This document shows positions 7,263 through 34,801 of a stretch of DNA of 37,423 bases, one piece after another (the first letter of the stretch is position 1; every line of letters starts with the position of its first letter). This DNA comes from Armatimonadota bacterium (lineage in GTDB: Bacteria > Armatimonadota > Zipacnadia > Zipacnadales > FEN-943), in contig PMZA01000221.1 in assembly GCA_003170595.1 (NCBI GenBank), positions 17,828 to 55,250 of the forward strand, written 5' to 3'. The translations under genes were made by a program, and so were the position numbers. The notes below the pieces were generated by a model. The model made no database searches and was not told the origin of the DNA. It saw only the letters and a program-made list of their open reading frames with translations.

Positions 7263-8558
7263 ATGGCACGCCCGAACATGCTTCTGATGATCTGCCACGA
7301 CCTTGGCCGCCACCTCGGCTGCTACGGCGTCGACACGGTGAGCAGCCCCTCGCTGGACGGCCTCGCCTCCGAGGGCGTTCGCTTCACCAACAGCTTCTGC
7401 TCGGCGCCGTCGTGCAGCCCCAGCCGCGCCTCGATCTTCACCGGCCGCTACCCACACTCCAACGGCGTGATGGGCCTTTGTCACTCCGAATTCGCGTGGG
7501 ACCTGCACCCCGGTGAGCGCCACCTCGCCGGCCTCCTCGGCGACGCAGGCTACCGGACGGCGCTGGCCGGTCTTCAGCACGAGACCTGTCGCCCGGCGGA
7601 GATGGGCTGGCAGGACATCTTGCCCTTCGGCCCCTGCGAGACCATCGCGGATGAGGCGATCGCCTGGATGCGCGGCGCCGCGGGTGGAGGTCAGCCCTTC
7701 TACGCGCAGGTCGGGTTCTTCGAGCCGCACCGCACCTTCGACTTCGGCGGCGCCGTCCCCGACGACAGCCTTGGTGTGACGATCCCTCCCTGGCTGGTCG
7801 ACGAGCCGTCCGCGCGCGAGGAGTTCGCCGGATACCAGGGCGCCATCCGCAAGGTCGACGCGGCGATCGGCACAATCCTGAAGGCCGTGGATGGCGCCGG
7901 CTTGCGCGAGAACACCATCGTCGTCTTCACGACGGATCACGGCATCCCCTTCCCGCGCGCGAAATGCTCGCTCTACGACCCGGGCCTCTCGACGGCGCTG
8001 ATCGCGCGATGGCCTGCGGGCGGATTGGCCGGCGGCCGGGTGCAGGACGAGATGATCCCGAACGTGGACTATCTGCCGACGCTCCTCGAGGCGGCCGGCG
8101 TGCCCGCGCCGGAGAACGTGCAGGGCCGAAGCTTCGCCGCGCTCCTCGGCGGCGGCGAGTATGAGCCGCGCGAAGAGGTCTTCGCCGAGATGACCTACCA
8201 CGATTACTTTGACCCGCGCCGCTGCCTTCGCACGAGGACGCATAAGCTCATCGCGAACTTCTCGACCGCCTATTTCTTCATGGACCCGAGCCAGAGCTGG
8301 CGGCCGAGGACGATCACCGTCAGCCCGCCCGAACCCGCCTGGGCCTACCATCCGCAGCTAGAACTCTACGACCTCGTGGCCGATCCGCTGGAGACGAACA
8401 ACCTGGCCGAGTCGCGGGAGCATGCGGCCCTGCGCGACGACATGGCCGCGCGCCTGCTGACTTGGATGGAGGAGACCGGCGACCCCCTGCTCGATGGCCC
8501 GCCCGCCTCACCGCATCATCGCAACACGATGGCGAAGCTCCGCGCCGCGCGAGGATGA
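7263..8558 (+). CDS. Cys-type S1 sulfatase, heparan N-sulfatase (SGSH)-like; no signal peptide
   Basis: FGly signature C-S-P-S-R-A-S-I-F-T-G-R (TGC at 7413-7415), 'GCYGVDTVSSPSLDGLASEGVRFTNSFCSAPSCSPSR', 'FTTDHGIPFPRAK'. Confidence 0.92.
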   Translation: MARPNMLLMICHDLGRHLGCYGVDTVSSPSLDGLASEGVRFTNSFCSAPSCSPSRASIFTGRYPHSNGVMGLCHSEFAWDLHPGERHLAGLLGDAGYRTALAGLQHETCRPAEMGWQDILPFGPCETIADEAIAWMRGAAGGGQPFYAQVGFFEPHRTFDFGGAVPDDSLGVTIPPWLVDEPSAREEFAGYQGAIRKVDAAIGTILKAVDGAGLRENTIVVFTTDHGIPFPRAKCSLYDPGLSTALIARWPAGGLAGGRVQDEMIPNVDYLPTLLEAAGVPAPENVQGRSFAALLGGGEYEPREEVFAEMTYHDYFDPRRCLRTRTHKLIANFSTAYFFMDPSQSWRPRTITVSPPEPAWAYHPQLELYDLVADPLETNNLAESREHAALRDDMAARLLTWMEETGDPLLDGPPASPHHRNTMAKLRAARG

Positions 8559-8621: not shown

Positions 8622-9743
8622 CTACCTCAACCTATCGGCCAGTCGTCTCAGCGTCCGCCGACTGTGGCTGAAAAGCTGCTGATACGCCGCGCAGAAGTAG
8701 CTCGCCGCGGCGACGTCGGGCGACGTGATGAGCCTGTGCTTCTGGCACCCGCCGTGGCACATCGGCAGCCACCGGCACGCACGGCATTGCTCCCCATAGT
8801 CGCTCTTCCGCCCGGCGAATTCCCGGAACGTCGCCGATGCGACAAGCTCGCCCAGCGGCTCCCGCGTGAGGTTGCCGAGCATCCATCGCGGCTCGACCAT
8901 GAAGTCGCACGCGTACACGTCTCCGTTGTGCTCGACCACGACATACGCGCCGCACGTTTCGGCAAAGGTGCACGACGGCGCCGGCTGACCCGCGTACGCC
9001 GATAGCAGTTCGTCGAAGATCCGGATGCCCAGCGGCGGCGGCCACTCGCCCGCCCACAGGTCGAACAGCCGGCACAAGAACTCGCCGTAATCCTCCGGCG
9101 CCACCGAGAACTCCGCCGCGGTCAACGGCTCCGCCCCAGGCTCAACGAGCGGGATGAACTGCAGGTGGCGCAGGTCCTTCGCGAGGAAGAACTCGAACAG
9201 CTCCTCGGGACGTCCGACGCTCTCTCGCGTAACCATGCACAGGACGTTGAATTCGACCCCGCCGCGGCGCAGGGCATCGATCCCCCTCATCACCCGCTCG
9301 AAAGTCGGCGCCCCCGATGCATCCCGCCGATGCAGGTCATGCAGCTCACGCGGCCCATCGAGGCTGACGCCCACGAGGAATTTGTACCGGGCGAAAAACC
9401 GCGCCCACTCGTCGTCCAGGAGCACGCCGTTCGTCTGAAAGCCGTTGCCCACGACCTGCCCCGGCTTGCCGAGACGCTGCTCGAACTCGACGGCCGCGCG
9501 GTAGAAGTCGAGCCCCATCAGCGTGGGCTCGCCCCCTTGCCAGGCGAGGACCGGCCTCGGCCCGGCGAGGCTCATGTACTGCCCCACCACTGCCTCGAGG
9601 ACGGCCTCCGTCATGCGATGGACGGGCGGGCCGTCAGGGTAGAGGACCGCCTTCGGCCGGTAGAAGCAATAGTCGCACGCGAGGTTGCAGTCGGGCCCGG
9701 CCGGTTTGATGAGGATCGAGCTTATCGGCGGGACACTGGGCAT
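8622..9743 (-). CDS. Anaerobic sulfatase-maturating enzyme (radical SAM, SPASM)
   Basis: ORF 8622-9821; ATG at 9743 (MPSVPPISSILIKPAGPDCNLACDYCFY). CxxxCxxC radical-SAM motif. C-terminal 'CRACRWLPMCHGGCQKHR' SPASM-type cysteines. Confidence 0.9.
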   Translation of the reverse strand: MPSVPPISSILIKPAGPDCNLACDYCFYRPKAVLYPDGPPVHRMTEAVLEAVVGQYMSLAGPRPVLAWQGGEPTLMGLDFYRAAVEFEQRLGKPGQVVGNGFQTNGVLLDDEWARFFARYKFLVGVSLDGPRELHDLHRRDASGAPTFERVMRGIDALRRGGVEFNVLCMVTRESVGRPEELFEFFLAKDLRHLQFIPLVEPGAEPLTAAEFSVAPEDYGEFLCRLFDLWAGEWPPPLGIRIFDELLSAYAGQPAPSCTFAETCGAYVVVEHNGDVYACDFMVEPRWMLGNLTREPLGELVASATFREFAGRKSDYGEQCRACRWLPMCHGGCQKHRLITSPDVAAASYFCAAYQQLFSHSRRTLRRLADRLR

Positions 9744-9844
9744 GGCCCGCCCATCATACCGCACCCGCCATCGCCCGAGGAAACCGGCGGCGAGGGACGA
9801 ACACACCCTCGTCGCACTCACCCTCCGCCTCGAGGAGAACGAGC

Positions 9845-28865: not shown

Positions 28866-30884
28866 TTGCCAGACCAACCCGACCCTGACCCTATCACCAA
28901 TATCGCACCAACGCCGGCCCCTACGCCGTCGCCCGCGATCGCCAAGGACCCGCGCATGCGCGGGCTCACCCTGCGCTCGGGCCTCATCGCCCTCATCCTC
29001 ATCCCCGTCAACGCCTACTGGGTGATCATGATGGAGGTGGTCCGTTATGAGGGCCACCCGACCACGATCTCCCTCTTCTTCAACACCGTCTTCCTCCTCG
29101 CCGTCCTCTCGGCCGCCAACAGCCTCTTCGCCCGCGTCTGGCCCAGGATCGCCCTCCACCGCAACGAGCTACTGGTCATCTACTGCATGCTCTGCATCTC
29201 CTCCGCCCTGGGCAGCCACGACCTCATCGAGGTCCTCACGCCTCAGATCATCTGCCCCTACGAGTTCGCCACCCCGGAGAACAAGTGGGAAGACCTCTTC
29301 TTCAAGCAGCTTCCGCCCTACCTGTTCGTCAACAACCCCAAGATCTACGATCCCGCCTTCCTCGGCGGCACGACCTTCGGCACCGTCGCCCGCCTGCAGG
29401 CTTGGTCGACGCCCCTGCTCAACTGGGGTGCCTTCCTCTTCGCCCTCACCCTCGTGATGCTGGGCATGAACTCCATCCTTCGCCGCCGCTGGACTGAACG
29501 CGAGAGGCTGACTTACCCCATCACGTACTTGCCCATCGAGATGACCACCACTAACGGTGGGCTCTGGCGCAACTGGTGGATGTGGGGCGCCTTCATCGTC
29601 GTGGCCCTGATCACCACGGTCAACAACCTGCACAACCTCTACCCGATGGTGCCCCTCATCAAGACGCGGGTCATCCACTACGACGCCTACATGGCCTCGA
29701 TCTTCCAGGGCTTCCCCTGGTACGCCCTCGCCGGTACCCGCATCAGCTTCTACCCCTTCGCCATCGGCATGGGCATGCTCCTGCCCACCGACCTCGCCTT
29801 CTCCTGCTGGTTCTTCTACCTCTTCTGGGCGGCGCAGAGGCTCCTTGCGACCGTCCTTGGGCTAGGCGGCATCCCTGAGTTTCCCTATGTCGCCGAGCAG
29901 TCGGCCGCGGCCTACATCGCCCTCGCCCTCTTCGCGCTTTACATGGCCAAGGACCACCTTCGCGACGTCTGGGATGGCCTGCGCGGTCATCTTACTTCCG
30001 GCGACGCTAGCGACCAGGGCGAGCCCATGCGCCACCGCGTCTCGGCGTGGATGATCGGCCTGAGCCTCCTCTTCCTCCTCGGCTTTTCGCTGAGGATGGG
30101 CATGTGGGCTTCCGTCGCCATCGCGGTCTTCATGATCTACTTCCTGTATTCCCTGACCATCACCCGCGTCCGCGCCGAGCTTGGTCCGCCCGCCCATGAT
30201 CTCCACATGGCCGGCCCCGACCAGGTCCTCACCAACATCCTCGGCAGCAACGGCCGCATCCTCCCGGCGAAACAGCTTGTGGACCTGAAGCTCTACTTCT
30301 GGTTCAACCGCGCCTACCGCTCGCACCCGATGCCCATCCAGCTCGAGTCCTTCAAGATCGCCGACCACGTCGGCATCCCCCTCGGCGCGATGAATCAGGC
30401 CCTCATCATCGCCGCGGTCCTGGGCATCATCTCCGCCTTCTGGGCTGAGACGCAGGTCTACTACGTCTACGGCATCTCGACGAAGATGAGCTTCGTCGCC
30501 AAGATTTTCGGCACCGAGCCTTTCGGCCAGCTTCAGTCCTGGCTGAGCAACGGCCAGCCGCCCAACTTCGGCAAGGCCGGCGCCTACGTTGTGGGTCTCG
30601 TGGCGACGCTGGTGGGCATGGCGCTACGGGTGCGCTACCTGTGGTGGCCCTTCCACCCGGTCGGCTACGCGATCTCGTCGAGTTGGTCGATGAACTGCCT
30701 GTGGCTGCCGATCTTCATCGCGTGGCTGGTGAAGTGGGCGGTGCTGAGGTACTTCGGCTATCAGAGCTACCAGAAGGTCATCCCGGTGGCGCTTGGATTG
30801 ATCCTCGGCGAGTTCCTCGTCGGCGGAGCCTGGCTCCTGGCCGGCTGGATCTTCAACTTCAACGCCTACGCCTTCTGGGTCTAG
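28866..30884 (+). CDS. Polytopic membrane protein, DUF6785/DUF6784-like
   Basis: TTG start after GAGGAG (28850-28855). About 12-14 hydrophobic segments, e.g. 'LRSGLIALILIPVNAYWVIMMEVVRYEGHPTTISLFFNTVFLL' and 'FHPVGYAISSSWSMNCLWLPIFIAWLVKWAVLRYFG'. Confidence 0.75.
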   Translation: MPDQPDPDPITNIAPTPAPTPSPAIAKDPRMRGLTLRSGLIALILIPVNAYWVIMMEVVRYEGHPTTISLFFNTVFLLAVLSAANSLFARVWPRIALHRNELLVIYCMLCISSALGSHDLIEVLTPQIICPYEFATPENKWEDLFFKQLPPYLFVNNPKIYDPAFLGGTTFGTVARLQAWSTPLLNWGAFLFALTLVMLGMNSILRRRWTERERLTYPITYLPIEMTTTNGGLWRNWWMWGAFIVVALITTVNNLHNLYPMVPLIKTRVIHYDAYMASIFQGFPWYALAGTRISFYPFAIGMGMLLPTDLAFSCWFFYLFWAAQRLLATVLGLGGIPEFPYVAEQSAAAYIALALFALYMAKDHLRDVWDGLRGHLTSGDASDQGEPMRHRVSAWMIGLSLLFLLGFSLRMGMWASVAIAVFMIYFLYSLTITRVRAELGPPAHDLHMAGPDQVLTNILGSNGRILPAKQLVDLKLYFWFNRAYRSHPMPIQLESFKIADHVGIPLGAMNQALIIAAVLGIISAFWAETQVYYVYGISTKMSFVAKIFGTEPFGQLQSWLSNGQPPNFGKAGAYVVGLVATLVGMALRVRYLWWPFHPVGYAISSSWSMNCLWLPIFIAWLVKWAVLRYFGYQSYQKVIPVALGLILGEFLVGGAWLLAGWIFNFNAYAFWV

Positions 30885-31063: not shown

Positions 31064-34000
31064 ATGCCGTTCTTCAGGCGAGGGCACATGTCAGTCGCCA
31101 TCGCGTTTCTCCTGGCCACGTCCTTCGCCCACGCCAACACCTGGGGCGTCCTCACCCGCGACGGCGGGGGCCGCCAGGTCGCGCCCTACCTCTCCTCCCT
31201 CGCCAGCGGGGAGCCCTCTGTCGGCGCCCTCCGTTCCACGACCTTCAAGCTCGACGCCGACACGATCTCCTTCACGATCTGCGGCTGGGACGGCGCGCCG
31301 GGCCAGCCTCGCCTGCGCAACCACTTCGCCCTCTGCGACGCTGAGAGCGGCCTCGCCCTCCGCCAGGTCTCGCCGCCCGCCACCGACGCGATGACCCCGG
31401 TCCACTGGGACGTCGTCGAGCTTATCGGCCGCCAAGTCTACTTCCGCGCCATCGATGGCGTGTCCGACCAGGCCTTCGCCTGGATGGGCGTAGCCGACGT
31501 GCGCGTTGGCGACCGCGACCTCACGCCCAGGCTCACTCCCGGCCACCTGCCCGCGGGGTGGACCGAGGAGTCCCGCCCGCCCGGCTTATCTGTGGACGAC
31601 TGGCTGGCCTGCAAGCCGGCCTCGTCCCGCCTGGCGATCGAGATGGATAGCACGGCGCCCACCTGGGGTGTCATCACGATCAACGGCGAGCGGCGCGAGT
31701 GCAAGCCCTACCTGTCCTCCCTCCGCGGCGGGGAAACTGGCACCGGCGCCGTCCGTTCGCCCGTCTTCGTCCTCGCCTCGCCCAAGTACACTTTCGTCGC
31801 CATGGGCGCCGACAGCCCCACCTGCGACGCCGGCCTCAACTCCTTCCAGCTTGTCGACGCGACCACCTTCGAGGTCCTGCGCACGGCCGAGCCGCCGGGC
31901 GGCAACACCCTCGTCCCGCTGTCGTGGAACACCTCCGACCTGGTCGGACGCCGCGTCTTCTTCCGCGCCGTCGACACCAACACCGCCGGCGGCTATGCCT
32001 GGATGGGCTGCGACGACGTGCCCCTCGGTGCGGGCAAGGTTGCCCACTTCGCCGACTCCGCCGCCCTCACTGGTTGGCGCGAGGAGGGCCAGCCCGAGAG
32101 CCTCCTCGCGGGTGTGGCCGCCGCCCCACGCAGCCTCCGCGAGATGGTCGAGGCCGAGTGGCTCAACGAGGATGTCCGCCGCGGCGTCCGTTGGTCGCTC
32201 TGGGAGCAGAACCCGCCAGCCGCGCCCTATCTCCTGCACCGGCTCGTTGTCATCATGGACGCCGACTTCGCCCGCGCCCGATCGCTCCTGCGTGACTTTG
32301 CCGGCGCGGGAGTGAAGCCCGACGATCTGGCCGCCTTCCGCGCCACCTTCACCCGGTTGAACCAGCGCTTTTCCGCCCTCCAGGGCAAGCCGCAGGGCAT
32401 CAAGGACTGGCAGGCTCTCCGCCACGACCAGCGCGTCGCCCTCCGCGACCTGGCCTTCCGCAACCCGCGCCTGTCCTTCCCGGCGCTCCTTTTCGTCAAA
32501 CGCTTCACGCAGCAGAGCTATTCCGACATCAACGTCAACCACCACGCCTGGGGCTCGCGTCCGGGCGGCGATCTTTGCCTCCTCACCGGCTTCGGTGCGA
32601 ACGGTGATCCCAAGGTCCGCCCGCTTCTCAGTGGCCGCCTCGGCCCCGGCAATGTCCACGGCATCGACCTCGACTTCGACGCCTCACGCATCGTCTTCGC
32701 CTACGCCCAGTCACTCACCGACCAGCCGCCCGACGGCTGGCTGAGCCGTCAGGCCACCTTTGACCTTCACCGCACCGTCGGCCTCCTCCACCTCTACGAG
32801 ATGTCTCCCGACGGCTCCAGGTTGACCCAGCTCACCCGCGGCGAGTGGAGCGATCTCAACCCCTGCTATCTTCCCAACGGCGACCTCGCCTTCGAGTCCG
32901 AGCGTTGCGCCCTGGAGATCGAGTGCAACGAGGGCGACAAGGACGAGCCGACGACCAATCTCTACGCCTACCGCCGCGCCGGCGGCACTATCGACCGACT
33001 GACCCTCACCAAGGACGGCGACTGGTACCCCCGCGTCCTTCCCGACGGCAGCATCGTCTATTCGCACTGGGAGTACCAGGAACGCAGCCTGATGTTCATG
33101 CACTCCCTCTGGTTCTGCCGCCCCGATGGCACCGGCGCCGACAATTTCGTCAAGCAGCACTTCGACTATCCGGTGACGCTGACCGTGCCTCGCCCTATCC
33201 CCGGCAGTGAGAAGCTCCTCGCCATCGCCGGCGGCCATCACACCCTCGCCGCCGGGCCCGTGGTCATCGTCGATCGCGCGAAGGGCATGAACAACCCCGA
33301 CTGCCTCGAGCGCGTCACCGGCCCCGACGTCTGGCCCGAACTCGGCGGCGCCGCCCCGGGCCCATCGACCGCCGGCTGGCACGCCTCGCCCGGTCAGGGC
33401 TGGTACATGGACCCCTATCCGCTCTCGGCCACGACCTACCTCGCGTCCTATTGCGACGGCGGCATGCAGGACGAGGCGGGCTACGCGCTCTATCTGATGG
33501 ACGTCTACGGCGGCAAGGAACTCCTCTACCGCGATCCCTCCATCTCCTCGGTCATGCCCATCCCGCTCAAGCCGCGCATGCGCCCGCCCAACCTGTGGAG
33601 CAACCGCGATCCAAAGATGGCCGACGCCCGCCTTATCGCCACCAACGTGGCCTCCGGCGTCGAGGGCGTGGCCCCCGGCGAAGTAAAGTTCCTCCGCATC
33701 GCCGAGCCCGTGCCCTGGTCCTATAGCAACGTCACTGGCGGCCAGCGCTACGATCCCGACGCCAAGGCCACGGGCGTCAACTGGACCCCGGTGCGCATCC
33801 TCGGCACCGTCCCGGTCGAGGCCGACGGCTCCGCGCAGTTCCGCGTCCCGGCCGACACGGGCCTCTACTTCCAGGCCCTCGACGCCCAGGGCCGCGAGGT
33901 CCGCCGCATGCGGACCTACATCAGCTTCCGCGCCGGCGAGGTGCGAAGCTGCACTGGCTGCCACGAGACCCGCAACGAGGCGCCCTCCATCCCGCGCAGC

Positions 34001-34801
34001 GAAGTCCTCGCCTGCCGCCACGATCCGTCCATCCCCACGCCGCCGCCCTGGGGCGATCGTCCTCTCAGCTTCCTCCGCGACGTTCAGCCCATCTTCAACC
34101 GCCATTGCCTTAGCTGCCACACGGGCCTCAAGCCCGCCGGCGGCGTCGACCTCTCGCCCGGTCTCACGGAGAGCAACAACCGCGCCTATGACACCCTCCT
34201 CGACCCGGCCCGCAACCTCGTCACCGTCGCGAGCAAGGGCGACGACACGCGCATCACTCCCGTCCGCGCTTTCGGCTCGCAGGCCAGTCGCCTCGTCGAT
34301 GTTATCCGCCACAGCGCCGGCGCCGCCCTTACCGACGACGAGTGGCGCCGCCTCTATATGTGGATGGACGCCAACGCCGTCTATCACGACGACTTCCTTC
34401 GCAAGCGCCCGCCCTCGGAGCTGCCCTACTCGATCGTGGAGGACAAGGACTTGTGGACCCGCATCGCCGGGGTCGAGCAGCGACGCTGCGCCTCCTGCCA
34501 TAGTGGGGCGAATCTGGCGCGGCCCGAGTGGGTTGACCTCGATGACCCGTCCCGCAGCCTCTTCCTGACGGCTCCGCTCGCCGGTTCGAGAACCCCCACC
34601 GGCAAGCATTGCGATCCCGCTCCCTTCGCCGACCGCAACGATCCCGACTACGCGGCGATGCTCTCGTGGCTGAAGGAGGCCGCCCAGCGAAGCTGGGACC
34701 ACCCTCGCCGCGACCTGCGCTGCTTCGTGGCTCAGCCGTCCCTCCGCCGCGACATCTTCTTCGGCTTTGAGCCCCTCGGCAGGACCGCTCGCCTGCCCTG
34801 A
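31064..34801 (+). CDS. Secreted tri-heme c-type cytochrome with beta-propeller, hydrazine-synthase-alpha-like architecture
   Basis: ORF 30641-34801; ATG 31064 after TTGGAGG (31048-31053). Signal peptide 'MSVAIAFLLATSFAHA'. Two ~123-aa N-terminal repeats, TolB/PD40-like propeller ('EMSPDGSRLTQLTRGEWSDLNPCYLPNGDLAFESER'), three CXXCH motifs at 33950, 34106 and 34487. Confidence 0.82.
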   Translation: MPFFRRGHMSVAIAFLLATSFAHANTWGVLTRDGGGRQVAPYLSSLASGEPSVGALRSTTFKLDADTISFTICGWDGAPGQPRLRNHFALCDAESGLALRQVSPPATDAMTPVHWDVVELIGRQVYFRAIDGVSDQAFAWMGVADVRVGDRDLTPRLTPGHLPAGWTEESRPPGLSVDDWLACKPASSRLAIEMDSTAPTWGVITINGERRECKPYLSSLRGGETGTGAVRSPVFVLASPKYTFVAMGADSPTCDAGLNSFQLVDATTFEVLRTAEPPGGNTLVPLSWNTSDLVGRRVFFRAVDTNTAGGYAWMGCDDVPLGAGKVAHFADSAALTGWREEGQPESLLAGVAAAPRSLREMVEAEWLNEDVRRGVRWSLWEQNPPAAPYLLHRLVVIMDADFARARSLLRDFAGAGVKPDDLAAFRATFTRLNQRFSALQGKPQGIKDWQALRHDQRVALRDLAFRNPRLSFPALLFVKRFTQQSYSDINVNHHAWGSRPGGDLCLLTGFGANGDPKVRPLLSGRLGPGNVHGIDLDFDASRIVFAYAQSLTDQPPDGWLSRQATFDLHRTVGLLHLYEMSPDGSRLTQLTRGEWSDLNPCYLPNGDLAFESERCALEIECNEGDKDEPTTNLYAYRRAGGTIDRLTLTKDGDWYPRVLPDGSIVYSHWEYQERSLMFMHSLWFCRPDGTGADNFVKQHFDYPVTLTVPRPIPGSEKLLAIAGGHHTLAAGPVVIVDRAKGMNNPDCLERVTGPDVWPELGGAAPGPSTAGWHASPGQGWYMDPYPLSATTYLASYCDGGMQDEAGYALYLMDVYGGKELLYRDPSISSVMPIPLKPRMRPPNLWSNRDPKMADARLIATNVASGVEGVAPGEVKFLRIAEPVPWSYSNVTGGQRYDPDAKATGVNWTPVRILGTVPVEADGSAQFRVPADTGLYFQALDAQGREVRRMRTYISFRAGEVRSCTGCHETRNEAPSIPRSEVLACRHDPSIPTPPPWGDRPLSFLRDVQPIFNRHCLSCHTGLKPAGGVDLSPGLTESNNRAYDTLLDPARNLVTVASKGDDTRITPVRAFGSQASRLVDVIRHSAGAALTDDEWRRLYMWMDANAVYHDDFLRKRPPSELPYSIVEDKDLWTRIAGVEQRRCASCHSGANLARPEWVDLDDPSRSLFLTAPLAGSRTPTGKHCDPAPFADRNDPDYAAMLSWLKEAAQRSWDHPRRDLRCFVAQPSLRRDIFFGFEPLGRTARLP

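Follow-up and report, generated by a model that had tools for sequence, protein, structure and literature searches.

Background

Hydrazine synthase has, to our knowledge, no relatives of known function. Its alpha subunit, HzsA, takes part in making hydrazine from hydroxylamine and ammonium and is built on a plan with two hemes. Here we describe the gene of a related protein with three heme motifs, at positions 31064-34801 (+) of a stretch of 37,423 nucleotides (contig PMZA01000221.1 of assembly GCA_003170595.1, positions 17,828 to 55,250), which is called the window below. All features of the gene lie on this strand. The host is an Armatimonadota metagenome-assembled genome (MAG) of 6.4 Mb in 553 contigs, 84.5% complete, and it is not an anammox organism. 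The protein has the fold of HzsA and has lost its catalytic ligands.

In HzsA, Tyr591 is the proximal ligand of heme alphaI and His772 the distal ligand of heme alphaII, while Cys303 binds zinc together with His587 (PMC12758564, PMC12607021). That proteins outside anammox are homologous to hydrazine synthase is already published. Such homologues, and the fact that they have lost both Tyr591 and His772, were reported in December 2025 (Hagglund et al. 2025, PMC12758564).

The clades I-IV of that report resemble the protein described here: they too are non-anammox HZS_alpha proteins lacking Tyr591 and His772, with fused homologues of HzsB and HzsC (called beta-gamma from here on) in the same genomes. 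They differ in having been chosen for co-location of alpha and beta-gamma genes, and the abstract names Planctomycetota and Desulfobacterota (PMC12758564). The clade described below lacks this co-location; nearly all of its members are tri-heme, and Armatimonadota are among its hosts. It is set apart from clades I-IV without the supplementary trees of that paper; within this limit, what appears to be new is the tri-heme orphan clade, along with the residues that it keeps invariant and the ratio of many alphas to one beta-gamma.

Fold and heme motifs

A preliminary description, made from the letters of the window, had proposed a tri-heme protein on the overall plan of HzsA, outside an anammox context. 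A full-length HzsA homologue is what the searches agree on. The Pfam family HZS_alpha (PF18582) matches residues 872-968, the middle domain (33677-33967), with E=2.1e-22 and 79.9 bits against a curated cut-off of 26.6. In the Protein Data Bank (PDB), the single sequence finds only HzsA (5c2v_A, E=4.7e-9). A profile of 32 sequences finds 5c2v_A at 6.7e-30, in pieces across the propeller, the middle domain and the alphaII domain.

The AlphaFold model of residues 380-1245 has a mean pLDDT of 85.7 and a pTM of 0.86. Its best Foldseek match in the PDB is again the HzsA of Kuenenia stuttgartiensis (5c2v_A, E=1.7e-28, TM 0.56/0.62, 848 columns). The next best is TolB at 6e-11, which shares the propeller fold but has no heme, and whose match is limited to the propeller. 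A generic propeller with a DUF1549/1553-type cytochrome had been named as the way in which the likeness to HzsA might dissolve. This is out: the structural match covers the entire core, and Pfam gave no such domain.

The three parts of the core stand in the identical order in HzsA (PDB 5C2V). The first is a propeller of the TolB/HzsA type at residues 475-871 or thereabouts (32486-33676), which bears out the TolB/PD40-like propeller noted earlier. The middle domain follows, and then a cytochrome c domain at residues 999-1105 (34058-34378; PF13442, 27.9 bits) which aligns to residues 641-766 of 5c2v_A and is the equivalent of the heme alphaII domain. A three-helix linker (residues 384-464, 32213-32455; helices 5-35, 40-61 and 67-85 of the model) precedes the propeller. 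The two proteins are 17% identical in the structural alignment.

The heme motifs are CTGCH (33950-33964), CLSCH (34106-34120) and CASCH (34487-34501), beginning at residues 963, 1015 and 1142, exactly where they had first been placed. When the protein was shuffled 20,000 times, no shuffle held even two CxxCH motifs. In the alignment of clade relatives, all 45 keep the three motifs unchanged. The first two align with the motifs of hemes alphaI and alphaII. Right after the first comes Glu968, invariant in 32/32 rows of a wider set of relatives; within the second, His1019 aligns with HzsA His689 in all rows.

The third motif has no counterpart in HzsA. It sits in a C-terminal extension (residues 1106-1225, 34379-34738), and HzsA stops after the alphaII domain. 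The HzsA plan thus fits the propeller, the middle domain and hemes 1 and 2, but heme 3 is an addition at the C-terminus. The lone cysteine of this heme 3 domain, Cys1183 (34610-34612), is also invariant (45/45).

The protein further differs from HzsA in having extra N-terminal domains. Beta domains had been suspected here, and the model supports two all-beta ones with moderate confidence (pLDDT 75): beta-sandwiches at residues 26-172 (31139-31579) and 198-342 (31655-32089), the second a repeat of the first in that the strand order recurs. Neither has a Pfam match, and Foldseek finds generic beta-sandwiches only, at a TM of about 0.3. Contig C492 of the host encodes another protein with a module 42-44% identical to domain 1; the rest of that protein has no Pfam match. 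In relatives from other phyla, the N-terminal region holds F5/8 type C (discoidin-type) domains. It is plausible, from such resemblances and the model, that the N-terminus binds a glycan or surface polymer.

Comparison with hydrazine synthase

Taken at its domain name, the protein would be a genuine alpha subunit and its host an unrecognised anammox-like organism. Fold and PF18582 match would suit this, as would a fused HzsB-HzsC homologue elsewhere in the genome. The NCBIfam equivalog model for HzsA, NF052339, tells otherwise: the protein scores 49.4 bits against a cut-off of 800. At E<=1e-10 the model matches none of 291 Armatimonadota genomes, whereas 27 of 392 Planctomycetota genomes, the positive control, pass its cut-off.

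The ligands were read from an alignment of ten HzsA, taken from Planctomycetota genomes passing NF052339, with 32 relatives; the residue numbers of one HzsA agree with those in print. All HzsA have Tyr591 (10/10) and none of the relatives does (0/32), including the tri-heme protein, which has no tyrosine at this position. His772 is likewise found in 10/10 HzsA; it is alanine in the tri-heme protein, and scattered and variable among the relatives. At the active-site hemes, whose ligands had been put forward for comparison, the heme motifs align, and the tyrosine and a conserved His772 are missing.

The zinc pair Cys303 and His587 is not found in the tri-heme protein either. The Cys303 column holds histidine in all 25 clade rows (His699 in this protein), and cysteine in only three of the ten HzsA rows. 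His699 may be the counterpart of Cys303, but the alignment runs through a poorly conserved region here and the equivalence is not claimed as shown.

On the missing ligands and the model score, a bona fide HzsA is rejected. Judged from sequence, by its ligands, its equivalog score and its gene neighbourhood, the protein is not a hydrazine synthase subunit, and the odds of an anammox-like host are slim in the extreme. With its HZS_alpha fold, heme alphaI motif and lack of Tyr591, it belongs with the non-anammox HZS-alpha-like proteins. The earlier remark that this family invites wrong annotation was to the point, as PF18582 is matched by a protein that fails the HzsA equivalog and lacks Tyr591.

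The tri-heme clade

Named genomes were scanned with an alignment of orthologues and two peptide patterns typical of the tri-heme group, which makes the result a sample of that group rather than of the family at large. The scan gave 53 loci, from Armatimonadetes, Planctomycetota, Verrucomicrobia, Lentisphaerae, Hydrogenedentota and Kiritimatiellaeota. Truncated copies aside, the main proteins matched carry three hemes.

In a tree of 141 alphas, with the ten HzsA as outgroup, the protein belongs to a clade that has 52 members and a support of 1.0. Fifty of the 52 are tri-heme, and the clade spans at least six phyla. Sixteen alphas in the tree have a beta-gamma gene next to them: none is in the clade, and 13 are in its sister group, mostly di-heme. 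One tri-heme alpha, which adjoins the beta-gamma gene of the host, also falls outside the clade, so three hemes alone do not define it.

Besides the heme motifs, residues invariant in 45/45 clade members include His493 (32540-32542), His699 (33158-33160), His725 and His726 (GHHTL, 33236-33241), Cys615, Cys621 and Cys1183, among others. The His725-His726 pair is near-invariant across the alpha family. His493 is mostly not histidine elsewhere; the other alpha rows read H, Y, Y, Y and V.

Beta-gamma proteins in the same genomes

The window holds no HzsB/HzsC-like gene, as had been stated. The genome does. On contig C377, an alpha paralogue (a 726-residue open frame) is followed by a 619-residue protein. 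The Pfam matches of this protein are a seven-bladed propeller and CCP_MauG, its PDB matches are HzsB (2e-40) and HzsC (5e-30), and it is collinear with anammox HzsB-HzsC at about 31% identity. No other full-length match of this type turned up in the host genome, which has five HZS_alpha genes. About 1.2 kb past the beta-gamma gene begins one more alpha, of which only the N-terminal portion fits before the contig ends (6408-8071).

This beta-gamma protein scores 250 bits against a cut-off of 1250 on the NCBIfam model of the beta-gamma fusion. By eye, the third heme-binding cysteine and a conserved histidine of HzsC are not kept at the aligned positions (for their roles see PMC12758564). Both results count further against an alpha subunit that makes hydrazine.

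No beta-gamma gene was found within the 692 kb surveyed around the named clade loci. Elsewhere in the genome, 20 of 20 clade genomes tested have one, a count that outside Armatimonadota comes without a baseline from alpha-less genomes. Among the 291 Armatimonadota genomes, 31 have an alpha, 32 a beta-gamma (E<1e-30) and 26 both. The resulting table of 26/5/6/254 gives a Fisher p of 1.5e-26, not corrected for kinship. The five genomes with alpha only (G256, G271, G274, G060 and G214 in our numbering) include several incomplete ones. In the six with beta-gamma only, the matches are weaker and mostly start near residue 205.

As a control, CBB3-type cytochrome c is present in 221 of the 291 genomes, so having cytochromes does not by itself account for the pattern. 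Most of the window's order, within genomes G252-G271, show no CBB3-type cytochrome c, and several of them are rich in HZS_alpha.

Alphas outnumber their possible partners. Alpha counts reach at least 16 per genome, against one to three beta-gammas; the alpha counts are floors, as no more than 16 candidates were scored. About 20 of 33 beta-gamma regions inspected adjoin an alpha, mostly a di-heme one. In one Armatimonadota genome at least five alpha paralogues surround a single beta-gamma, with ResB/CcsA-like genes nearby (L085 and L086, G253:C5:64000-96000). One alpha stretch in this cluster reads through four in-frame TGA codons.

A broader possibility is a modular non-anammox system, in which one di-heme beta-gamma would serve interchangeable alphas with differing substrates in trans, the tri-heme clade being one alpha type that has gained a third heme over the HzsA plan. 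We regard this broader scheme as rather unlikely.

A different account is that beta-gamma acts on the alphas. MauG acts on its target, and MbnH on MbnP, as di-heme enzymes that oxidise residues. By analogy, beta-gamma might oxidise residues of several alphas to mature them, which would account for the many alphas per beta-gamma. The host's beta-gamma shares the di-heme C-terminal half and CCP_MauG with these enzymes, and weakly matches the MauG (42 bits) and MbnH (48 bits) models. These scores are far below the cut-offs of 443.85 and 362.85, and beta-gamma adds an HzsB-type propeller. In hydrazine synthase the equivalent parts form a stable complex, and a target residue in alpha is only hypothetical. 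This makes the account improbable.

Gene, export and neighbourhood

The frame starts at an ATG and stays open over all 1245 residues. A longer frame from a GTG at 30641 is less likely because the orthologues begin near the ATG, with signal peptides of their own. A Sec signal peptide is predicted at residues 1-25 (31064-31138), with a positive N-terminus, a hydrophobic core and the site AHA-N; the orthologues begin in a similar way. GC content at third codon positions is 0.89, which fits a real gene in a GC-rich genome.

Assembly from a fragmented MAG of 553 contigs might raise the suspicion of an artefact or a chance assembly. Six Armatimonadota orthologues, 62-68% identical and carried by members of the same family and order, already refute this, and the invariant motifs and the open frame speak against it too; there is next to no chance of it.

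Cytochrome c maturation genes had been suggested as something to look for in the genome, and they are there. ResB is present, and CcsB beside it scores above its equivalog cut-off (198.2 against 187.6), so System II maturation is available to the host. With the CxxCH motifs, the predicted export signal and a maturation system all in place, the protein has the sequence features of a c-type cytochrome. On contig C428 (L240, 3-3788), ResB and CcsB follow a gene in which a multiheme cytochrome and a membrane cytochrome b are fused, and a NuoB-like frame lies downstream; this is a cytochrome c maturation and respiration cluster.

The glycoside hydrolase neighbours described earlier are real: the window holds WbsX, NAGPA, GH39, sulfatase, GH3, NPCBM, CBM9, GHL10 and GH5-like genes. 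Directly upstream of the tri-heme gene, though, are not carbohydrate genes: a DUF6785/DUF6784 membrane protein (28866-30884) and an M24 peptidase. The downstream flank is a convergent GH5-like gene, and the tri-heme gene is probably monocistronic.

A sugar-linked role, also suggested before, has indirect support from the discoidin-type domains of relatives, the C492 module and the carbohydrate-rich surroundings; domains 1 and 2 themselves carry no Pfam name.

Elsewhere in the window, a C-type sulfatase with a CSPSR motif (7263-8558, +) converges on the gene of an anaerobic sulfatase maturase (8622-9821, -; TIGR03942, 402 bits against a cut-off of 349). This pair suggests an anaerobic host.

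Proposed role

Of the preliminary description, the HzsA homologue outside anammox stands, and the maturation genes are there; the lack of HzsB/HzsC holds for the window but not for the genome, and a third heme within the HzsA plan does not stand. Our tentative reading, which we hold at a little under even odds, is that the protein is an exported tri-heme c-type cytochrome with the HZS-alpha fold, a non-hydrazine paralogue of HzsA that likely works with a beta-gamma encoded in trans.

Heme 1 would lie under the propeller, with an ordinary histidine, His967, replacing tyrosine as proximal ligand. It is the likely reaction site, because the invariant propeller histidines (His493, His699 and His725/726) would line its other face. 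Hemes 2 and 3 could relay electrons between this site and a partner. The most likely partner of the tri-heme protein would be the MauG/peroxidase-like di-heme beta-gamma from its separate locus on contig C377, and through its N-terminal beta-sandwiches the tri-heme protein itself would be held in place. The N-terminal beta-sandwiches may tether it to a glycan or to a polymer at the cell surface.

Several points weigh against this reading. The beta-gamma partner is a candidate, as would be any substrate. The co-occurrence statistic makes no correction for kinship and is no proof that the two proteins touch. The view of the heme pocket comes from an AlphaFold model built without heme, and the sugar-binding role rests on structural matches as weak as a TM of about 0.3. 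The genes right next to clade members are of many kinds (of 61, seven are Gfo/Idh/MocA and two sulfatase), so operon context names no pathway.

It is also possible, if somewhat doubtful, that the protein does nothing but carry electrons. It would then be a tri-heme cytochrome of the cell surface or periplasm with no chemistry of its own, docking through its propeller and working in extracellular electron transfer or in a pathway that oxidises sugars. Three hemes and a carbohydrate-binding-like N-terminus would suit such a carrier, and so would dispersed, apparently monocistronic genes amid carbohydrate-rich neighbourhoods. But docking alone would not seem to call for as much constraint as the invariant histidines of the propeller and Glu968 show, and the nearest solved relative is a catalytic subunit.

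Implications

For metagenomes, a match to the 'HZS_alpha' domain is not in itself evidence of anammox, and members of this clade should not be annotated as hydrazine-making enzymes. Non-hydrazine alphas across at least six phyla provide a way to ask what the parts of hydrazine synthase did before hydrazine synthesis. The clade also offers a route to the origin of the tyrosine-ligated heme alphaI.

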